Source of the DNA: Fluviicola sp.
Lineage (GTDB): Bacteria > Bacteroidota > Bacteroidia > Flavobacteriales_D > Crocinitomicaceae
Assembly: GCA_002734085.1 (NCBI GenBank)
Contig: NVXV01000006.1
Coordinates: forward strand, 76,230-126,087
Length of the DNA: 49,858 nucleotides
Direction of reading: 5' to 3'
The notes under the pieces are model-generated. The model was not told the origin of the DNA. It made no database searches and saw only the letters and a list, made by a program, of their open reading frames with translations. Below are positions 4,874 through 17,209 of this stretch, one piece after another; the first letter of the stretch is position 1; every line of letters starts with the position of its first letter. The position numbers and the translations under genes were made by a program.

Positions 4874-5006
4874 AAATAAGTGTTCTTTTTGTCTCTAAGC
4901 GTGAGAAATGTTAAAGTTTATCAAAAATATACTGTTCAAAGAAGATGTAAGGTTGTGTTTTATTGTAAGGAGTCGTATATAAGTGAGTCTATAATTAGTT
5001 TTGTAT

Positions 5007-5026
5007 TTTTTAGTCTTATCTAAAAA
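5007..5026. promoter_or_regulatory. Operator-like perfect inverted repeat upstream of the DtxR/MntR-type regulator
   Basis: The sequence is TTTTTAG-N6-CTAAAAA, a perfect 7-base inverted repeat with a 6-base spacer. Its half-site resembles the TTAGG/TTTAG half-sites bound by DtxR, IdeR and MntR family regulators. It lies 5 bases upstream of the TATATTTG element at 5032-5039, in the place where a bound repressor would block polymerase. Binding by the adjacent regulator is inferred. Confidence 0.5.
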
Positions 5027-5031
5027 TATTT

Positions 5032-5039
5032 TATATTTG
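5032..5039 (+). promoter_or_regulatory. -7 promoter element of the regulator-ZIP operon
   Basis: TATATTTG matches TAnnTTTG exactly. It shows that the first in-frame ATG (5001) lies upstream of the promoter and cannot be the real start, which moves the start of the regulator to 5058 or 5070. No convincing -33 TTTG is seen at normal spacing. Confidence 0.55.
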
Positions 5040-5057
5040 CACCATAATTCAAATAGG

Positions 5058-5726
5058 ATGGAGGAGATATTGACACAAAGTGAAGAGAACTACATAAAAG
5101 CAATTTTTTCGTTGTACCAACAAACAAATGCTCCTGTTTCTACCAATGATTTGGCGGAAAGGATGGAAACAAAAGCTAGTTCTGTTACCGATATGGTTCG
5201 AAGACTCTCTGAAAAATCATTATTGCTTTATACAAAATACAAGGGATGTGAATTGACAAAGGAAGGTGAACGTACAGCTTTAAAAACGATACGTAAGCAT
5301 AGACTTTGGGAAACATTTTTAGTTGAGAAATTAAAATTTGGATGGGATGAAGTGCACGATATTGCAGAACAATTAGAGCATATTCGCTCAGTTAAATTAA
5401 CAGATCAATTGGACGCATTTTTGGATTTCCCAAAATTTGATCCGCATGGTGATGCAATTCCTGATAAAAATGGAGAAATAGTTCAACGAGAAAAATCTTG
5501 TAAGTTATCGGATTTGGAGTTAGAATCTGAGGCAATTGTTATTGGTGTGGCAGATGGGTCTCCATCATTTTTAAGGTATTTAGACAAGCATCAAATTACA
5601 CTTGGAACAAAATTAGTAATTAAGGAAAGATTTGAGTTTGATGACTCGATGGAGGTGGAGTTGAATGATACGATTTTAAGCTTATCTTCTGCTGCATCTT
5701 CAAAAATAACTGTTCAATTAGTATAG
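5058..5726 (+). CDS. DtxR/MntR-family metal-dependent transcriptional regulator
   Basis: A 222-residue metalloregulator with three parts: an N-terminal winged helix (residues about 5-70, with NDLAERMETKASSVTDMVRR as the recognition region), a dimerisation/metal-binding domain (about 71-140) containing KHRLWETFL and AEQLEHIRS, and a C-terminal FeoA/SH3-like domain (about 150-222). The E-x-x-E-H arrangement matches MntR, where DtxR has C-x-x-E-H, suggesting manganese rather than iron, but the N-terminal positions that are Asp and Glu in Bacillus MntR look like Asn and Lys here. Metal selectivity is therefore open. Two starts are possible: ATG 5058, or TTG 5070, which has GGAGGAG just upstream. 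The next gene, a ZIP transporter, begins 3 bases after its stop, so the two form one operon, probably under metal control through the inverted repeat at 5007-5026. Confidence 0.88.
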   Translation: MEEILTQSEENYIKAIFSLYQQTNAPVSTNDLAERMETKASSVTDMVRRLSEKSLLLYTKYKGCELTKEGERTALKTIRKHRLWETFLVEKLKFGWDEVHDIAEQLEHIRSVKLTDQLDAFLDFPKFDPHGDAIPDKNGEIVQREKSCKLSDLELESEAIVIGVADGSPSFLRYLDKHQITLGTKLVIKERFEFDDSMEVELNDTILSLSSAASSKITVQLV

Positions 5727-5729
5727 TAA

Positions 5730-6551
5730 ATGGATTCAATTATTGCATTTTTTGAAAATATAGATCCTGTTTTAGCAGCTTTATATGCAACCCTCTTTAC
5801 TTGGGGATTGACTACTTTGGGCGCTTCATTTGTATTTCTTTTTAAAGGGATGAATCGAGCGCTTTTAGATGGAATGCTAGGGTTTACAGGGGGAGTTATG
5901 GTAGCAGCGAGTTTCTGGAGTTTGTTGGCTCCAGGAATCGAAATGAGTGACGGAGAAGGCTTTATGAAAGTTGTTCCTTCAGCTATTGGATTTACGCTTG
6001 GAGCATTTTTTATATATGGTTTAGACCAGATTTTACCACATTTGCATATCAATTTCAAGGAAAGTGAGAAAGAAGGGATTAAAACTCCATGGAGAAAAAG
6101 TACCTTATTATTCCTAGCTATTACATTACATAATATTCCTGAAGGGTTAGCGATAGGAGTATTGTTTGGTGGTGTTGCCGCTGATGTGCCTGGTGCAACA
6201 ATCGGTGGTGCTGTTACTTTAGCTATAGGGATTGGTATTCAAAATTTCCCAGAAGGTATTGCCGTTTCTATGCCTATGCGCAGGCACGGGGCATCTCGCT
6301 GGAGAAGCTTTAATTATGGGCAGATGTCTGCCATTGTTGAACCGATTTTTGGGGTTCTTGGAGCTTTGGCTGTTAGTTTTTTCAATCCAATATTACCTTA
6401 TGCATTGGCTTTTGCAGCAGGGGCAATGATTTATGTTGTTGTTGAGGAGGTGATTCCTGAAACACAAAGAGATAAATACACAGATATTGCAACGATGGGG
6501 TTCATCTTTGGCTTCGTAGTTATGATGATGCTCGATGTAGGGTTAGGATAG
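5730..6551 (+). CDS. ZIP-family divalent metal transporter
   Basis: A 273-residue inner-membrane transporter of the ZIP family, with eight predicted membrane segments. The two metal-site helices are visible: HNIPEG at about residues 134-139 (helix 4) and NFPEG at about 171-175 (helix 5), matching the HNxPEG and paired xExPE motifs of bacterial ZIPs such as ZupT. The loop between helices 3 and 4 has HLHIN, a short histidine-containing stretch usual in the family. It would import zinc, manganese or iron. The gene lies 3 bases downstream of the DtxR/MntR-type regulator, so its expression is probably metal-responsive. Which metal is carried cannot be read from sequence. The start ATG at 5730 directly follows the stop of the regulator. 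Confidence 0.9.
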   Translation: MDSIIAFFENIDPVLAALYATLFTWGLTTLGASFVFLFKGMNRALLDGMLGFTGGVMVAASFWSLLAPGIEMSDGEGFMKVVPSAIGFTLGAFFIYGLDQILPHLHINFKESEKEGIKTPWRKSTLLFLAITLHNIPEGLAIGVLFGGVAADVPGATIGGAVTLAIGIGIQNFPEGIAVSMPMRRHGASRWRSFNYGQMSAIVEPIFGVLGALAVSFFNPILPYALAFAAGAMIYVVVEEVIPETQRDKYTDIATMGFIFGFVVMMMLDVGLG

Positions 6552-7796: not shown

Positions 7797-9383
7797 TTAG
7801 TTTGCTAACTCGTCCGCCATCACTTTATATGTAGGGTCCTCCAGAACATTAACGTCAATGATTTTATCTGCATTTTTCAATAGTTTTCTACAATCTTGAC
7901 TCAAATGCTTTAAGTGAACCTTTTTACCTGCTTTTTGATAAAGCTCGGTCAATTTATTAAGTGCCTCAATCCCTGACATATCTACAACACGACTTTCTGA
8001 AAAATCAATCACAACTTCTTCAGGGTCATTGGCAATGTCAAATTTCTCATTGAAAATCGAAACAGAACCAAAGAATAATGGTCCGTATATCTCGTAGTAT
8101 TTAACTCCGTTTTCATCAATTTTCTTACGAGCTCGAATACGCGTAGCATTCTCCCAGGCAAATGTTAAAGATGATATAATAACTCCAACAAGTACAGCCA
8201 ATGCTAAGTTGTGGAAGTAGACTGTAACGAACATTACCACGAGCATCACAAAGATGTCTATTTTTGGCATTTTGTTGAACGTTCTCAAACTTGCCCATTC
8301 AAACGTTCCAATAGAAACCATAATCATTAACCCCGTTAATGCAGCCATTGGTAATTGCTCGACAAGTCCTGAACCGAACATTATAAATAGTAATAAAGCT
8401 ATTGCCGCTACAATACCAGAAAGTCTAGCTCTTGCACCTGAGGATATGTTTATCAAACTTTGGCCAATCATTGCACAACCACCCATCCCTGAAAAGAAAC
8501 CAGTAACTGTATTTGCGGCACCTTGTGCAATACACTCTTTGTTTGTACGCCCTCGTGTTTGTGTTATTTCATCAATTAAATTTAATGTTAATAGACTTTC
8601 GATTAATCCGACTCCTGCCATGATCACAGCATAAGGAAGAATAATAAGGAGTGTGTCCCAAGTAAATGGTATTTGTGGCACATTGAAAGGTGGAAAGCCT
8701 CCTTCGATAGAGCCACCATCTAAGGTGTCCTTTACGGTAGATACATCTAAACCAAAACCAATTGTAATAAACGCTATAACAAGAATTGCGGCAAGTGAGC
8801 TAGGAATTATCTTGGTGATTTTAGGAAGTCCCCAGATGATTACCATTGTTAATAGAACAAGTCCTAACATTATTAATAACGGTGTTCCAGTCATCCACTC
8901 TAACTCTCCAGACGCTCCTCTAGATTTAAAGTAGTTCAATTGAGACATGAAAATTACAATCGCCAATCCGTTTACAAATCCGTACATTACGGAGTGTGGA
9001 ACAAGTCTAATAAACTTACCTAAACGTAAAAAACCGATCAACATCTGAATTATTCCTGCTAAGACTACAGTAGCAAAAATGTATTGTGCGATTTGATCAC
9101 CAGTAACATCAACTTTAGACTTCAGTTCGATTATCATACCGATAAAAACTACTGCTACCGCCCCTGTAGCCCCAGAAATCATACCTGGTCTACCTCCGAA
9201 AATGGATGTTATTAACCCAATTGTAAAGGCAGCATATAATCCTGTCAATGGAGATAATCCTGCTAATAATGCGAAGGCGATTGCTTCTGGTACTAACGCG
9301 ATTGCTACTGTAAGTCCTGATAAAACTTCGTTTTTGTAGTCTACTTTCTGATTTAAATCAAAAAGGTTAAAATATTTTTTCAT
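7797..9383 (-). CDS. SulP-family anion transporter with STAS domain
   Basis: A 528-residue inner-membrane transporter of the SulP (SLC26) family. It has 12-14 hydrophobic segments over residues 20-410, with the conserved N-terminal AIALVPEAIAFALLAGLSP segment, the GATGAVAVVF segment and the GMGGCAMIGQSLINISSGAR motif near residue 300. A C-terminal cytoplasmic STAS domain (about 425-528) carries the VVIDFSESRVVDMSGIEAL core. Family members carry sulfate, bicarbonate, dicarboxylates or other anions; the substrate cannot be decided from sequence. It stands alone on the minus strand and converges with the preceding plus-strand gene with a 20-base gap. A TATTTTTGCACC promoter-like element sits about 110 bases upstream. 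Confidence 0.92.
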   Translation of the reverse strand: MKKYFNLFDLNQKVDYKNEVLSGLTVAIALVPEAIAFALLAGLSPLTGLYAAFTIGLITSIFGGRPGMISGATGAVAVVFIGMIIELKSKVDVTGDQIAQYIFATVVLAGIIQMLIGFLRLGKFIRLVPHSVMYGFVNGLAIVIFMSQLNYFKSRGASGELEWMTGTPLLIMLGLVLLTMVIIWGLPKITKIIPSSLAAILVIAFITIGFGLDVSTVKDTLDGGSIEGGFPPFNVPQIPFTWDTLLIILPYAVIMAGVGLIESLLTLNLIDEITQTRGRTNKECIAQGAANTVTGFFSGMGGCAMIGQSLINISSGARARLSGIVAAIALLLFIMFGSGLVEQLPMAALTGLMIMVSIGTFEWASLRTFNKMPKIDIFVMLVVMFVTVYFHNLALAVLVGVIISSLTFAWENATRIRARKKIDENGVKYYEIYGPLFFGSVSIFNEKFDIANDPEEVVIDFSESRVVDMSGIEALNKLTELYQKAGKKVHLKHLSQDCRKLLKNADKIIDVNVLEDPTYKVMADELAN

Positions 9384-9697
9384 TTAAAAATTGAATATTA
9401 AAATTGATTATTTTGCTTGGCGACTCGTGCTTGCATTAAATAAATCAAGGTGGAGTAATTTTAAAATTCATATCTTTTGTGTTTTGAAGGTGCAAAAATA
9501 GTACTTTCTTTTTAAAGCCTCGGTTATTTTGAAAATTACTTTTGTTCGTTTTAGGTTCAACCTGAAAGATTCAGAGTTCAATACTGTAGCAAGTGATAAT
9601 GGTCTTGTAAGAGATTGTAATTAAAACGTTTTGGAATGGTCTTTGTCCCTGCAGCACAAATAATTATTATATTTAAACAATATTAAAAAACTTACTT
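9384..9697. other. Divergent intergenic region between sulP-like gene and repeat-protein gene
   Basis: This 314-base region has promoter-like elements pointing both ways: TATTTTTG on the minus strand (9493-9500), and TTTG (9642-9645) with TATATTTA (9668-9675, one mismatch to the consensus) on the plus strand ahead of the repeat protein. The middle part (about 9500-9640) shows no reading frame or clear secondary structure. Confidence 0.5.
9493..9500 (-). promoter_or_regulatory. Putative -7 element of the SulP transporter gene
   Basis: The minus strand reads TATTTTTGCACC, with the TAnnTTTG core at 9493-9500. It is followed by C-A, as in the regulator promoter at 5032-5039. A leader of about 100 bases would separate it from the SulP start codon. 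No -33 element is clear. Confidence 0.4.
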
Positions 9698-10030
9698 ATG
9701 AAATTAATTTTATTTGTTGCCCTACTAATAATCTCATCTTTGAGCTATAGCCAAAAAGTATATACAGTTGATTACGAAAGTCGTGCTGATGTAAAAGTAT
9801 TCGTTGTAGACTATGAAAGTCGTGCTGATTTAGTCGTTTATAAAGTAGATTATGAAAGTCGAGCAGGTGACAATGATGGTAATTGGTTTTTTGTTGATTA
9901 CGAAAGTCGTGCCGATAAGAGTATCTTTTTTGTAGAATATGAGAGTCGAGCCGATCTAAAAATATTTTTTGCAGACTATTCTAGTCGAGCTGGTTGGAAG
10001 AATTCTTCTAAGAAACATTTGATGTATTAG
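9698..10030 (+). CDS. Secreted YESRA-repeat protein, probable 7(1) septoil-knot family (formerly DUF6150)
   Basis: A 110-residue exported protein. Residues 1-19 form a signal peptide (MKLILFVALLIISSLSYSQ). The rest consists of six short repeats with core DYESRA beginning at residues 25, 38, 51, 67, 80 and 93. The period is exactly 13 residues except for one 3-residue insertion after the third repeat; the last two are EYESRA and DYSSRA. Each repeat also has a beta strand of the type KVFVV. From memory this pattern belongs to the family called DUF6150 or Septknot, small proteins predicted to form a deeply knotted 7(1) topology. No biological role is known to me. It stands alone, in a single-gene unit with AT-rich flanks. 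The family name is recalled, not searched; the repeats are directly visible. Confidence 0.8.
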   Translation: MKLILFVALLIISSLSYSQKVYTVDYESRADVKVFVVDYESRADLVVYKVDYESRAGDNDGNWFFVDYESRADKSIFFVEYESRADLKIFFADYSSRAGWKNSSKKHLMY

Positions 10031-10400
10031 GGGAAGACGGTGAGAGATTATGGCATTTAGACTCACTTCGTTGTAAGACATTTTTTTTGTATCCTTAAAC
10101 TGCCGCAAGGTTACATCTTGTGGACTTGGGGAAATAAAAAAGTCTGACTCCTGTTCAAAACGCAACCTAAACCCAATGAAACAATATGAACAAGAATCAG
10201 ACTCCACTACTAACTATTATGAAAAAAACAACTTTGGTAATTGTCTTTCTCAAATATACAAACTGATTTTAAGTGTTTGACTCAAAAATTGTGAACGGTG
10301 CTTTTAATTGATTTAAGTATTAATTTGATTGATTAAAATTCTTAAAAATATTTCGAAACTTCCGTGAATTTCATTTTCTATATCAATTTATCCTTTATTT
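10031..10400. other. Intergenic region with a long imperfect inverted repeat
   Basis: This 370-base gap has no credible reading frame. It contains the 17-base inverted repeat at 10141-10203, described separately, and an AT-rich 200-base stretch ahead of murQ. A short frame MKKTTLVIVFLKYTN near 10220 looks like the first part of a signal peptide but stops after 15 codons, so it may be a gene relic or chance. Confidence 0.4.
10141..10203 (-). terminator. Hairpin with T-run on the minus strand
   Basis: Two 17-base arms, 10141-10157 and 10187-10203, are complementary at 15 of 17 positions. On the minus strand the two others become G-U pairs, so a minus-strand transcript forms a full 17-pair stem, followed by TTTTTATTT. 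The loop is unusually long (29 bases). No minus-strand gene lies just upstream, so either it ends an unseen transcript or it is a relic of a small repeat element. Confidence 0.4.
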
Positions 10401-11231
10401 TTGATAAAAATTGATGTTTTGAAGAAAATCACAGAGTCTGCGAGTAATTATGATCATTTGGAGGAGATGTCAATGAGAGAAATTCTCGTTGGTATGAACC
10501 GTGAAGATCAAACTGTACCTCTGGCTATTGAGAAAATCATTCCAGAAATTGATGCTTTCGTTACAAAAGCTTTGGAGTGCATGGTAAAAGGTGGTAGACT
10601 CTTTTATTTAGGTGCTGGAACTAGTGGTCGACTTGGCGTTGTAGATGCTTCTGAATGCCCTCCGACCTTTGGTGTTGATCACGGTGTTGTAATTGGTTTG
10701 ATTGCTGGAGGAGATGAAGCGATCCGAAAAGCGGTAGAAAATGCTGAGGATAATTCTGAACAAGGTTGGGATGACTTATTAGCGCATAATATCAAAGAAA
10801 ATGACGTTGTTGTAGGTATAGCCGCTTCTGGAACTACGCCTTATGTGATTGGGGCTATAGAGAAAGCAAACAGAAACGGTAATTTAACTGCTGGAATCAC
10901 TTGTAATCCTGATAGTCCATTGGATCAAGCAGCAAAACATTCATTAGTTCCTATTGTAGGTCCTGAATTTGTCACAGGAAGCACTCGATTGAAATCAGGT
11001 ACTGCTCAAAAATTAGTGCTTAATATGATATCTACAAGTCTAATGATTGGATTAGGACATGTTCACGGTAATAAAATGGTGGATATGCAACTCAGTAATG
11101 CAAAGTTAGTGATTCGAGGAACTCAAATGGTAGCTGAATCTTGTAATATAGATATGAAATTGGCTAAAGCTTTATTAATTGAACATGGTTCAGTAAGAAA
11201 AGCTGTTCAACATTATATGAAAAAACAATAA
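10401..11231 (+). CDS. murQ: N-acetylmuramic acid 6-phosphate etherase
   Basis: MurQ cleaves the lactyl ether of MurNAc 6-phosphate to give GlcNAc 6-phosphate and D-lactate during recycling of peptidoglycan sugars. The 276-residue protein is one SIS-fold domain with the family signatures LGAGTSGRLGVVDASECPP (about residues 72-90, including the Glu used for catalysis), AASGTTPYVIG and the C-terminal GHVHGNKMVDMQ segment. No anmK, murP or murK homologue is adjacent. It is followed 7 bases later by cmk, so the two are probably co-transcribed. The start is uncertain: there is no in-frame ATG. TTG 10401 overlaps a TATTTTTG element (10396-10403), whereas TTG 10419 would give MKKITESASNYDHLE, close to the length of homologues. 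Confidence 0.93.
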   Translation: MIKIDVLKKITESASNYDHLEEMSMREILVGMNREDQTVPLAIEKIIPEIDAFVTKALECMVKGGRLFYLGAGTSGRLGVVDASECPPTFGVDHGVVIGLIAGGDEAIRKAVENAEDNSEQGWDDLLAHNIKENDVVVGIAASGTTPYVIGAIEKANRNGNLTAGITCNPDSPLDQAAKHSLVPIVGPEFVTGSTRLKSGTAQKLVLNMISTSLMIGLGHVHGNKMVDMQLSNAKLVIRGTQMVAESCNIDMKLAKALLIEHGSVRKAVQHYMKKQ

Positions 11232-13993: not shown

Positions 13994-16900
13994 TTATTCA
14001 TCACAATTTACAACAACCCCTATAACACAAATATCGTCTACTTGCTCATATCCCTCTGCCCATGAATTCATTTCATTTTCAAGAATTTCTTGTTGTTCTG
14101 ACATTGGTTTTTGATAATTTTCAGTGATTAACGTTTTCATCACTTTAACTTTGAATTTTTTATTTCTAGGTCCTCCAAATTGATCAGCATAACCATCAGA
14201 AGTCATGTAAAATGATGTCGTTTTATCTATCGTAAACTCATGCAATTCATACACTTGATCAATAGAAGTAAATCCTCCGACTGCTACTTTTGTTGCTTTG
14301 ATTTCATGAAGTTCTCCATCTTGGATAAACCAAAGCGGTCTATGCGCACCTGCGTATTTAATTGTTTTTTTCTTTTGATTAATAGTGATAATAGAAGCAT
14401 CCATTCCGTCTCGAGTAGCTTTTTTACTCTCGTCTTGGCGCAGAGAAGTTTTAATTCCTTCGTTTAAAAAAGATAGAATTTTATCAGGAGAGGTAATTCC
14501 TTTTTCACCAACACAAACATTGAGTTTATCTACTCCAATCATGGACATAAATGCTCCTGGAACACCATGTCCTGTACAGTCGGCACAAACGATAATTGAT
14601 TCATCTCCTCGTTGATAAAACCAATAAAAATCTCCACTAACCACGTCTTTTGGCCAAAATAAAATGAAAGAATCGGCAAGATGTTTTGTCATTTCATCCT
14701 TTAGTGGAAGAATTGCATTCTGAATTCGTTGTGCATAATTGATACTGTCTTCTATTTCAGTTTTCTGATGTAAGATTTCAGTCTTTTGGTCTTCTAATCG
14801 GTGATTTTTCTCTTCAATTTCTTTGGTACGCTCTTTTACAGCGGACTCTAACCTTTTGTTCTGCTGCTTTAGTCGATAAGAACTTATAACTATTGCAAAA
14901 TAAATGATAACAATAAATAATAATACGTAAGCGGTATAGGCAGTTGCTGAACGATACCAAGGTGTAAGTATTTTAAAGCTAATTTTGGCTGGTTTAGCTT
15001 CTTGACGATATACATTTCTAGCTTTTACTATAAAAGTATACTCGCCCTCCTGTAAATTAGAAAAATCCATTTCAGTTTTCTCCGTCCAATCAGACCATTT
15101 TTCATTGTACCCTATAAGTTTGTAGCTGTATTCAATGGGTTGATGGTCTTCAAAATAAGGTGCGCTAAATGTAAAATTAATGAAGTTTTTTTCGAATTCT
15201 AATTCAATCGATCTGTTTTTTTTGGAATGATGCCCTCCATAGATTATTGACTTTTTTTTAGTCATCACCTTTCGAATTAAGGTGTTGAAATTCTCCTTAA
15301 ATGGTATTTCTCCTTTAATATTGTAACGAATTAAGCCTTCTGTAGCACCAATCCATAAATACTCTTTATGTTCTGGACGGTAAAGGGTGTTAATACGTCC
15401 TTTTTTGATTCCCCAAAAAGGTCTATTGATATAGGTTTCTTCTTTCTTATTATATATCCCAACGTCGTTGTCAATGCAATACCAAATATGCTTCTCGTCT
15501 TCTGTAAAGTAGAATATCGGTTTTTTGAAAATGCTATCTCCTAATTTAGTAGGCATAAAAACGGTAAATAACTCTCCATCAAAATCCGTTTGATCCACTT
15601 CTAGGATTCCATCAGTTGTGCCAAAAACAACTTCACCATTTAATTTTTGAGGAACAATCACGTGATCACTTGGGAAACCATAAGAAACGCCACTAAAGAA
15701 TTCCACATTAAATTTGTTTTGAATATAACTTAACTTCAGAACACCTAGACCTTGAAGACCTAACCAATAATTAGTTGTATCTTTTTTTGTTTCACTTTCT
15801 ATATTCGTGACAGAAGAAAATGCTTCAGGAAAGGTAAATATCGGAGCCAAAGATTTTGAATTCAGCACTTGTAAGCCTTGTTTTCCAGCAGTAATAATCT
15901 GATTAAGATCTTCATTAATGTAAAGGGCATTTACATTCTGACGATTGATGCGTTTAGGATCAGCGTTTGGAATAGTGAGGTCTAAAGTGAATAAACCTTC
16001 ACTCGTACCAATATATAAGGTATTATTAAGCTGTTTTAAGCTCCAAACACTGTGTTTAATGGATTCAACTTTTTCATAAATTCGAAAAAGTGACTCATTT
16101 TTTTGATTGATTCGAAATAACCCTTCATTTGTTCCGACAAATAAATGATCGTTATTATTAATGTTGGTTTGGAGTACAACTTCTACACCTCCAATGAGTC
16201 CTTGATTTTCTCCAAAATAAGATAAACGCGAATCTAAATTAACCAATGCAATTCCGTTACCTAATGCCATCCATAAATTACCGTCGTAATCAATGAATTG
16301 ATTTTTAACTTCGTTCGAGCGAAGTCCCATACGCTTATTAATTCTACCGAGTTCATTTCCTTGATAATCAATAATTATACAGCCTTTATCAAAAGTATTT
16401 AATGCAATCCTATTGGAACCAATTTTCTGGGCACCAAAAATGAGTAGTTTATTTAGGAAGTCACTATTGGGATTTTCGATTGGTTCGACTTTGTTTTGAC
16501 TCGTCAATTTGTATAAACCAATTTCCTGTGTGATGATAAGATGTTCTTTCTTATCTTTCATTGGTATTATTCCGAATGCTGCATAAATCTCAAATGGTTC
16601 AGAACCCTCTATTCTTTCCCAAGCGTCACCATTCCACTGCATTAATCCAAAGTCGCGCATTCTTACTACAAGTTTGTCATTCACTTTGAAAACAGTATGC
16701 ACGGTAGAAGGCATAGGAAGCAAGATTATTTCTTCATTTTTATATTGAAATATTTGCTGTTCACTCTGAAAGAAAATCCCATCGGAAGTTTCAATGATAG
16801 ACCAGACATCATTAAAAGGATTAGACTCACGTAAGGTTGAATCTACAAGCGATTGATACTTATAACTACCAACACTATCAATTGATAAATATCCAAAATC

Positions 16901-17209
16901 CCCCATCACACCAACGTAAATCGTTCCGTCTTCTGCAGTATAAAGAGATCTTGTTACTCGAGAGGAAACAATTGGGATTTCTTCCCATCTTGTGCCATCA
17001 AAAGCTAAAATGTTACCAGTATTTCCAAAATACATAACACCAGATTGATCTTGAGTGACCCCATGATTGTCAGGAGCATATTCATGTCCATAATCATCTG
17101 TTGTGTAATTAGTTATTGGAGGAAAGAAATCTTGCCCAAAAAAAGTATTAAACTGACAAAAAAATGTCGTGACCAAAAGAATAAAATAATATTTGGGTTG
17201 AATATTCAT
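13994..17209 (-). CDS. Propeller sensor with Y_Y_Y domain, membrane helix and SpoIIE-type phosphatase output
   Basis: A 1071-residue membrane receptor. Residues 1-25 are a signal peptide. About residues 40-660 form a two-component-regulator propeller made of repeated motifs such as MYFGNTGNILAFDGTRW and LYIGTSEGLFTLD. Then come a Y_Y_Y domain (about 670-745, EYSYKLIGYNEKWSDW), a membrane helix (about 750-776), a coiled coil (about 778-830) and a PP2C/SpoIIE serine phosphatase (about 850-1070). The phosphatase has the metal-binding Asp motifs SGDFYWF, ADCTGHGVPGAFMSMIG and DGMDASI intact. The layout is that of a hybrid sensor in which a kinase is replaced by a phosphatase, as seen in many Bacteroidota. 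It would read an extracellular ligand and dephosphorylate an anti-anti-sigma-type partner; no such partner lies nearby. Confidence 0.88.
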   Translation of the reverse strand: MNIQPKYYFILLVTTFFCQFNTFFGQDFFPPITNYTTDDYGHEYAPDNHGVTQDQSGVMYFGNTGNILAFDGTRWEEIPIVSSRVTRSLYTAEDGTIYVGVMGDFGYLSIDSVGSYKYQSLVDSTLRESNPFNDVWSIIETSDGIFFQSEQQIFQYKNEEIILLPMPSTVHTVFKVNDKLVVRMRDFGLMQWNGDAWERIEGSEPFEIYAAFGIIPMKDKKEHLIITQEIGLYKLTSQNKVEPIENPNSDFLNKLLIFGAQKIGSNRIALNTFDKGCIIIDYQGNELGRINKRMGLRSNEVKNQFIDYDGNLWMALGNGIALVNLDSRLSYFGENQGLIGGVEVVLQTNINNNDHLFVGTNEGLFRINQKNESLFRIYEKVESIKHSVWSLKQLNNTLYIGTSEGLFTLDLTIPNADPKRINRQNVNALYINEDLNQIITAGKQGLQVLNSKSLAPIFTFPEAFSSVTNIESETKKDTTNYWLGLQGLGVLKLSYIQNKFNVEFFSGVSYGFPSDHVIVPQKLNGEVVFGTTDGILEVDQTDFDGELFTVFMPTKLGDSIFKKPIFYFTEDEKHIWYCIDNDVGIYNKKEETYINRPFWGIKKGRINTLYRPEHKEYLWIGATEGLIRYNIKGEIPFKENFNTLIRKVMTKKKSIIYGGHHSKKNRSIELEFEKNFINFTFSAPYFEDHQPIEYSYKLIGYNEKWSDWTEKTEMDFSNLQEGEYTFIVKARNVYRQEAKPAKISFKILTPWYRSATAYTAYVLLFIVIIYFAIVISSYRLKQQNKRLESAVKERTKEIEEKNHRLEDQKTEILHQKTEIEDSINYAQRIQNAILPLKDEMTKHLADSFILFWPKDVVSGDFYWFYQRGDESIIVCADCTGHGVPGAFMSMIGVDKLNVCVGEKGITSPDKILSFLNEGIKTSLRQDESKKATRDGMDASIITINQKKKTIKYAGAHRPLWFIQDGELHEIKATKVAVGGFTSIDQVYELHEFTIDKTTSFYMTSDGYADQFGGPRNKKFKVKVMKTLITENYQKPMSEQQEILENEMNSWAEGYEQVDDICVIGVVVNCDE

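Follow-up and report, generated by a model that had tools for sequence, protein, structure and literature searches.

We describe a gene of the DUF6150 family (Pfam PF19647) in a 49,858-nucleotide stretch of Fluviicola sp. DNA (contig NVXV01000006.1 of assembly GCA_002734085.1; hereafter the window), whose product carries six repeats, each composed of a six-residue motif, mostly DYESRA, and a strand half. Comparison with relatives in other genomes shows that the motif copies of a protein change in lockstep, while the strand halves evolve position by position.

Motif copies and strand halves

The comparison used 123 mature sequences reduced to 22 representatives under 75% identity; rows L005, L007, L013, L016, L040, L041, L072, L089 and L104 fell outside the counts through length or script filters. 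For the six-residue motif, copies in one protein have an identity of 0.762, and equivalent copies (same repeat number) in different proteins 0.395; 1000 permutations gave a within-protein mean of 0.41 and a maximum of 0.443. The six residues after the motif show the reverse, with 0.41 inside one protein, slightly above the permutations (mean 0.38, maximum 0.403), and 0.691 for equivalent repeats of different proteins. The same division is seen by column in repeats 1, 2, 4 and 5, where motif positions 2-5 range from 0.68 to 0.93 within proteins and from 0.22 to 0.41 between them, whatever the repeat number, and columns 8, 10 and 12 from 0.14 to 0.35 within and from 0.70 to 0.87 between. An earlier run of 99 sequences and 18 representatives, which omitted L004 (included in the 123), gave the same picture.

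Joint change of the copies was counted in 59 pairs of proteins, chosen only on non-motif columns, in which the same four copies were compared. Motif columns differ in all four copies in 18 of 236 cases, where independent change would give 0.10, and core columns in 1 of 295 (0.09 expected). Over all six copies, 17 of the 236 motif columns differ together, against an expectation of 0.00. The closest relative of the window protein outside the motif (L008) agrees with it in 51 of 56 columns there and in only 12 of 36 motif residues, its motifs being five copies of DQSYNA and one of DQAYNA.

Different motif codes can occur side by side. The window's own genome has a second DUF6150 gene (G000 contig C1 14826-15098; L002 1501-1794, minus strand) with five repeats of a DSDYKA motif, so that this code coexists there with DYESRA. 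Locus L165 contains two neighbouring DUF6150 genes, one with a QYKSDA-type and the other with a DADYKA-type code, each nearly homogeneous.

An aromatic rule and what keeps the copies alike

Within the motif, Tyr, Phe or His stands at position 2 or position 4 and not at both in 783 of 792 copies, a count that excludes the six copies of the out-of-frame row L033b; seven copies have an aromatic at neither position and two at both. When the position-2 and position-4 classes are loosely defined, 93 proteins have all six copies in one class and 29 all in the other (not population frequencies, since the 80 loci described below were the nearest to the window protein and L133-L155 were taken from the highest Pfam scores). 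Mixed classes are thus absent from 122 of 123 proteins under this definition, the exception being the divergent L132. We infer that the rule reflects a repeated contact, in which position 2 of one motif would lie against position 4 of a neighbouring motif. One protein outside the 792-copy count, that of L028, weighs against such a rule: four of its five motif copies carry Tyr at position 2 as well as at position 4.

The L028 gene (985-1701, minus strand) encodes five DUF6150-like repeats, mostly of KYAYEA type and with no signal peptide, followed by a linker rich in Ser, a probable membrane helix and an SH3_3 match that is weak and below the cut-off. Multiple independent origins of the position-4 class were also considered and are not claimed; the motif-class tree, which omits L132, needs five changes, and the approximately unbiased (AU) test does not reject a single clade (p 0.38).

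The likeness of the copies might be maintained at the DNA level, by gene conversion or slippage between the repeats, instead of by selection. In 97 genes the motif codons are indeed more alike than local usage predicts (identity 0.534, 0.460 expected), above all for Ser (0.47 observed, 0.21 expected) and less so for Gln (0.72, 0.64) and Ala (0.39, 0.32), and of the 91 genes with four or more such Ser residues, 42 use AGY codons for all of them. For Tyr, Asp, Glu, Lys and Arg, however, motif codon identity is close to expectation, and codon identity in the six residues after the motif is 0.555 where 0.569 is expected. The strand halves adjoining the motif are not homogenised, and conversion tracts would need to end at the motif edges every time. 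Ongoing DNA copying is thus not the main force, with an old or partial contribution possible, and we regard conversion or slippage as an improbable substitute for selection. Another possibility is that the motifs bind one repetitive or symmetric ligand, with the lineage-specific motif setting ligand specificity. The coexistence of different codes in the neighbouring L165 genes and in the window's genome fits this, as does the L028 protein, which shows that a motif need not have exactly one Tyr. No ligand or partner is known, however, and near-exclusive placement of the aromatic at position 2 or 4 is more naturally read as a packing rule, so that we lean against ligand binding while keeping it in view.

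Fold and knot order

The window protein is probably knotted, with a knot order that is unproven. The AlphaFold2 (AF2) model has a mean predicted local distance difference test score (pLDDT) of 91.2, with blocks from residue 21 on at 93-99. The protein reads as a signal peptide followed by Gln as the mature N-terminus, six repeats of motif plus strand, and finally a short helix at the C-terminus. Fold comparison supports a resemblance between this predicted fold and Q9PR55 of Ureaplasma (8IWA, 8IWB, 8JRM), an 89-residue protein with a solved 7(1) knot, the most complex known protein knot. Residues 17-100 of the six-repeat model align on residues 23-84 of the Q9PR55 chain, with 62 Q9PR55 residues matched and about 22 residues skipped. 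Sequence and profile searches of the PDB (E up to 1, some up to 10) did not list Q9PR55, and the matches they listed were at chance level; the link to the solved knot therefore comes from fold comparison alone.

The second copy in the genome, whose predicted model is weaker than that of the window protein, aligns more completely. Its residues 16-88 superpose on 19-84 of the Q9PR55 chain over 65 residues at 3.0 Å, and Foldseek gives a root-mean-square deviation of 4.3-4.8 Å with a probability of up to 0.97; 65-66 residues of Q9PR55 are matched, and identity to the two models is 18-26%. The 12 fetched relatives of this copy in other genomes have six repeats, and alignment places its missing repeat at about repeat 5 of the window protein.

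The earlier note had read the window protein as probably a 7(1) torus knot. Of that reading, membership of PF19647, the signal peptide and a fold resembling Q9PR55 are supported. The short-period repeats, with one strand each in the AF2 model, would suit an ordinary unknotted beta-solenoid, which we consider very improbable. A protein of the same family and fold might instead have a torus knot of another order, 5(1) or 9(1), set by repeat number and by the threading of the end strands. Reported homologues do differ in this respect: PMC9278004 presents P73136 as probably homologous to Q9PR55 and reports a predicted 5(1) knot for it, where Q9PR55 has a 7(1) knot. At 112 residues, P73136 is similar in total length to the window protein, with which it was compared by description only. 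In addition, the alignment with Q9PR55 takes in nearly the whole length of the five-repeat paralogue, whereas the six-repeat protein has to skip its 22 or so residues, as though it held a repeat that Q9PR55 lacks. We nevertheless judge a different order somewhat unlikely. The Knotted Solenoid fold described in PMC13123833 is likewise a knotted repeat protein of bacteria, and differs in being a beta-solenoid whose knot is 3(1) and arises by a skip-and-backtrack shift.

A speculative model of the knotted fold takes DUF6150 as a natural series, with five repeats in the second copy of this genome and six in the window protein; the latter might then have one winding more than Q9PR55 and perhaps form a 9(1) knot. 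A single repeated contact, of Tyr at position 2 with a small residue at position 4 or with the two exchanged, would lock the knotted ring and oblige all motif copies to switch together. We offer this combination, in which repeat number would set the knot order and the motif contact would lock the ring, as a conjecture that is unlikely as it stands.

Family, gene and neighbourhood

Pfam PF19647 matches residues 16-109 with an E-value of 4.9e-23 and 81.4 bits against a curated cut-off of 27, covering profile positions 6-98 of 98, which confirms the family that the earlier note had named. DUF6150 is indeed its Pfam name; 'Septknot', given alongside it, and the related phrase '7(1) septoil knot domain' were found neither in the Pfam entry, which describes a family of unknown function, nor in a literature search under 'septknot', 'DUF6150' and 'septoil', which returned no relevant paper. 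NCBIfam has no match for the protein. With its full-length profile match, six repeats, signal peptide and NDGxW insertion, the window protein shows no essential difference from the family and is an ordinary member; its six 13-residue repeats, insertion and invariant Trp residues are those of the family alignments and the proteins of 80 loci.

These 80 loci are the best of 409 that encode relatives, out of 460 pattern hits in a scan of a contig collection, and they point to Crocinitomicaceae and other Flavobacteriales as the source of the nearest relatives. By eye they share the architecture of the window protein, apart from L112 (no ATG found by script), L116 (in-frame stop) and L104 (insertion one residue shorter). 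Among near genomes, 26 of 59 have PF19647 above its cut-off. For genomes sampled from the order the figure is 205 of 399, and for those sampled from the phylum it is 19 of 395, or 20 when matches with E up to 0.001 are counted. A plasmid search gave a single weak match, on a Chryseobacterium plasmid (30.6% over 78%, E 3e-3), and none with L028 or L132 as query; a phage search found no relatives; and viral contigs held one, L132. PADLOC anti-phage defence families gave no match at E up to 1, and PHROGs phage families gave weak matches only (best E 0.0099, of unknown function), which do not amount to membership.

The gene and its features are listed in Table 1. The six repeats, the signal peptide (MKLILFVALLIISSLSYS, leaving Gln19 as the mature N-terminus) and a single 3-residue insertion after repeat 3 were all found as first described, with motif spacings of 13, 13, 16, 13 and 13. 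Chance is excluded as a source of this layout, because the 80 retained loci show it as well. The signal peptide suggests that the protein is exported. The insertion, taken at first for a phase shift private to this protein, is common to the family and therefore no such thing: the NDGxW segment with its Trp is present in 25 of 25 aligned sequences, one residue shorter in L007, L013 and L016. The divergent L028 has no insertion after repeat 3. Promoter-like elements had also been proposed and are not supported: TTG-(17-23)-TANNTTTG, the Bacteroidetes-type promoter consensus, has no match in 9384-9697.

Table 1. Coordinates of the DUF6150 gene, its features and its flanking genes in the window.
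Feature	Position	Strand	Evidence
SulP sulfate permease with STAS domain, divergent neighbour	7797..9383	-	Pfam PF00916 and PF01740
DUF6150 (PF19647) gene, 110 residues, six repeats, putatively exported	9698..10030	+	Open reading frame, ATG start; Pfam; AF2
Signal peptide, residues 1-18	9698..9751	+	Read from sequence; hydrophobic N-terminus before Gln in relatives; pLDDT 63-66
Repeat 1 motif DYESRA, residue 25	9770..9787	+	
Repeat 2 motif DYESRA, residue 38	9809..9826	+	
Repeat 3 motif DYESRA, residue 51	9848..9865	+	
GDNDGNW segment with 3-residue insertion, family hallmark	9866..9886	+	Family alignment, proteins of 80 loci
Repeat 4 motif DYESRA, residue 67	9896..9913	+	
Repeat 5 motif EYESRA, residue 80	9935..9952	+	
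Repeat 6 motif DYSSRA, residue 93	9974..9991	+	
SIS-domain protein, MurQ-like, downstream neighbour	10401..11231	+	Pfam PF22645 and PF01380

The gene stands alone in the window, as the earlier note had it, but the accompanying view that no partner hints at a role does not extend to its relatives, some of which have a recurrent partner. In 13 of the 80 loci, and also in L152 outside the 80, the DUF6150 gene is followed on its own strand by a gene for the nicotinamide mononucleotide (NMN) transporter PnuC. The gap, taken to the start of the alignment, is 46-50 bases in 11 of the 13, 81 in L130 and 390 in L115, and PF04973 (PnuC) was confirmed in L110 and L079. A NadR-like AAA_28 gene comes next after pnuC in all 13 loci and in L152; L065 has AAA_28 alone. 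In L110 the order DUF6150 - pnuC - AAA_28 occupies 5001-6337 and recurs in 12 more of the 80. In nine of these other 12 loci PnuC matches its L110 counterpart at no more than 34-40%; the link between DUF6150 and pnuC has thus survived considerable divergence. The DUF6150 proteins in this position differ in motif (DAEYKA in L152, DYESRA in L055, KYESQA or DYESQA in L120). In the window's own genome pnuC lies elsewhere, with no DUF6150 beside it. We treat the association as a lead on function and no more.

The flanking genes of the window recur as well, in a set of loci many of which reach only 1.5 kb. SulP relatives occur in five other DUF6150 loci (L014, L026, L027, L052, L059), and an SIS-domain relative in nine (L014, L020, L021, L025, L026, L027, L052, L059, L062), or six when identical DUF6150 proteins, which form three pairs, are counted once. 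An inverted repeat lies 3' of the gene (10141-10157 and 10187-10203, 17-nucleotide arms at 88%, 29-nucleotide spacer), and the 370 bases around it have no match elsewhere in the genome. Farther downstream, 13994-17209 (minus strand) encodes a 1071-residue regulator that combines propeller and Y_Y_Y domains with a SpoIIE phosphatase domain.

With DUF6150 present in about half of the order's sampled genomes, the family is no oddity confined to a single species. How proteins tie very complex knots is an open question, and six- and five-repeat relatives side by side allow the relation between repeat number and knot order to be tested. The lockstep of the motif copies was unexpected, and it sets a strong, checkable limit on explanations of what holds such a fold together.
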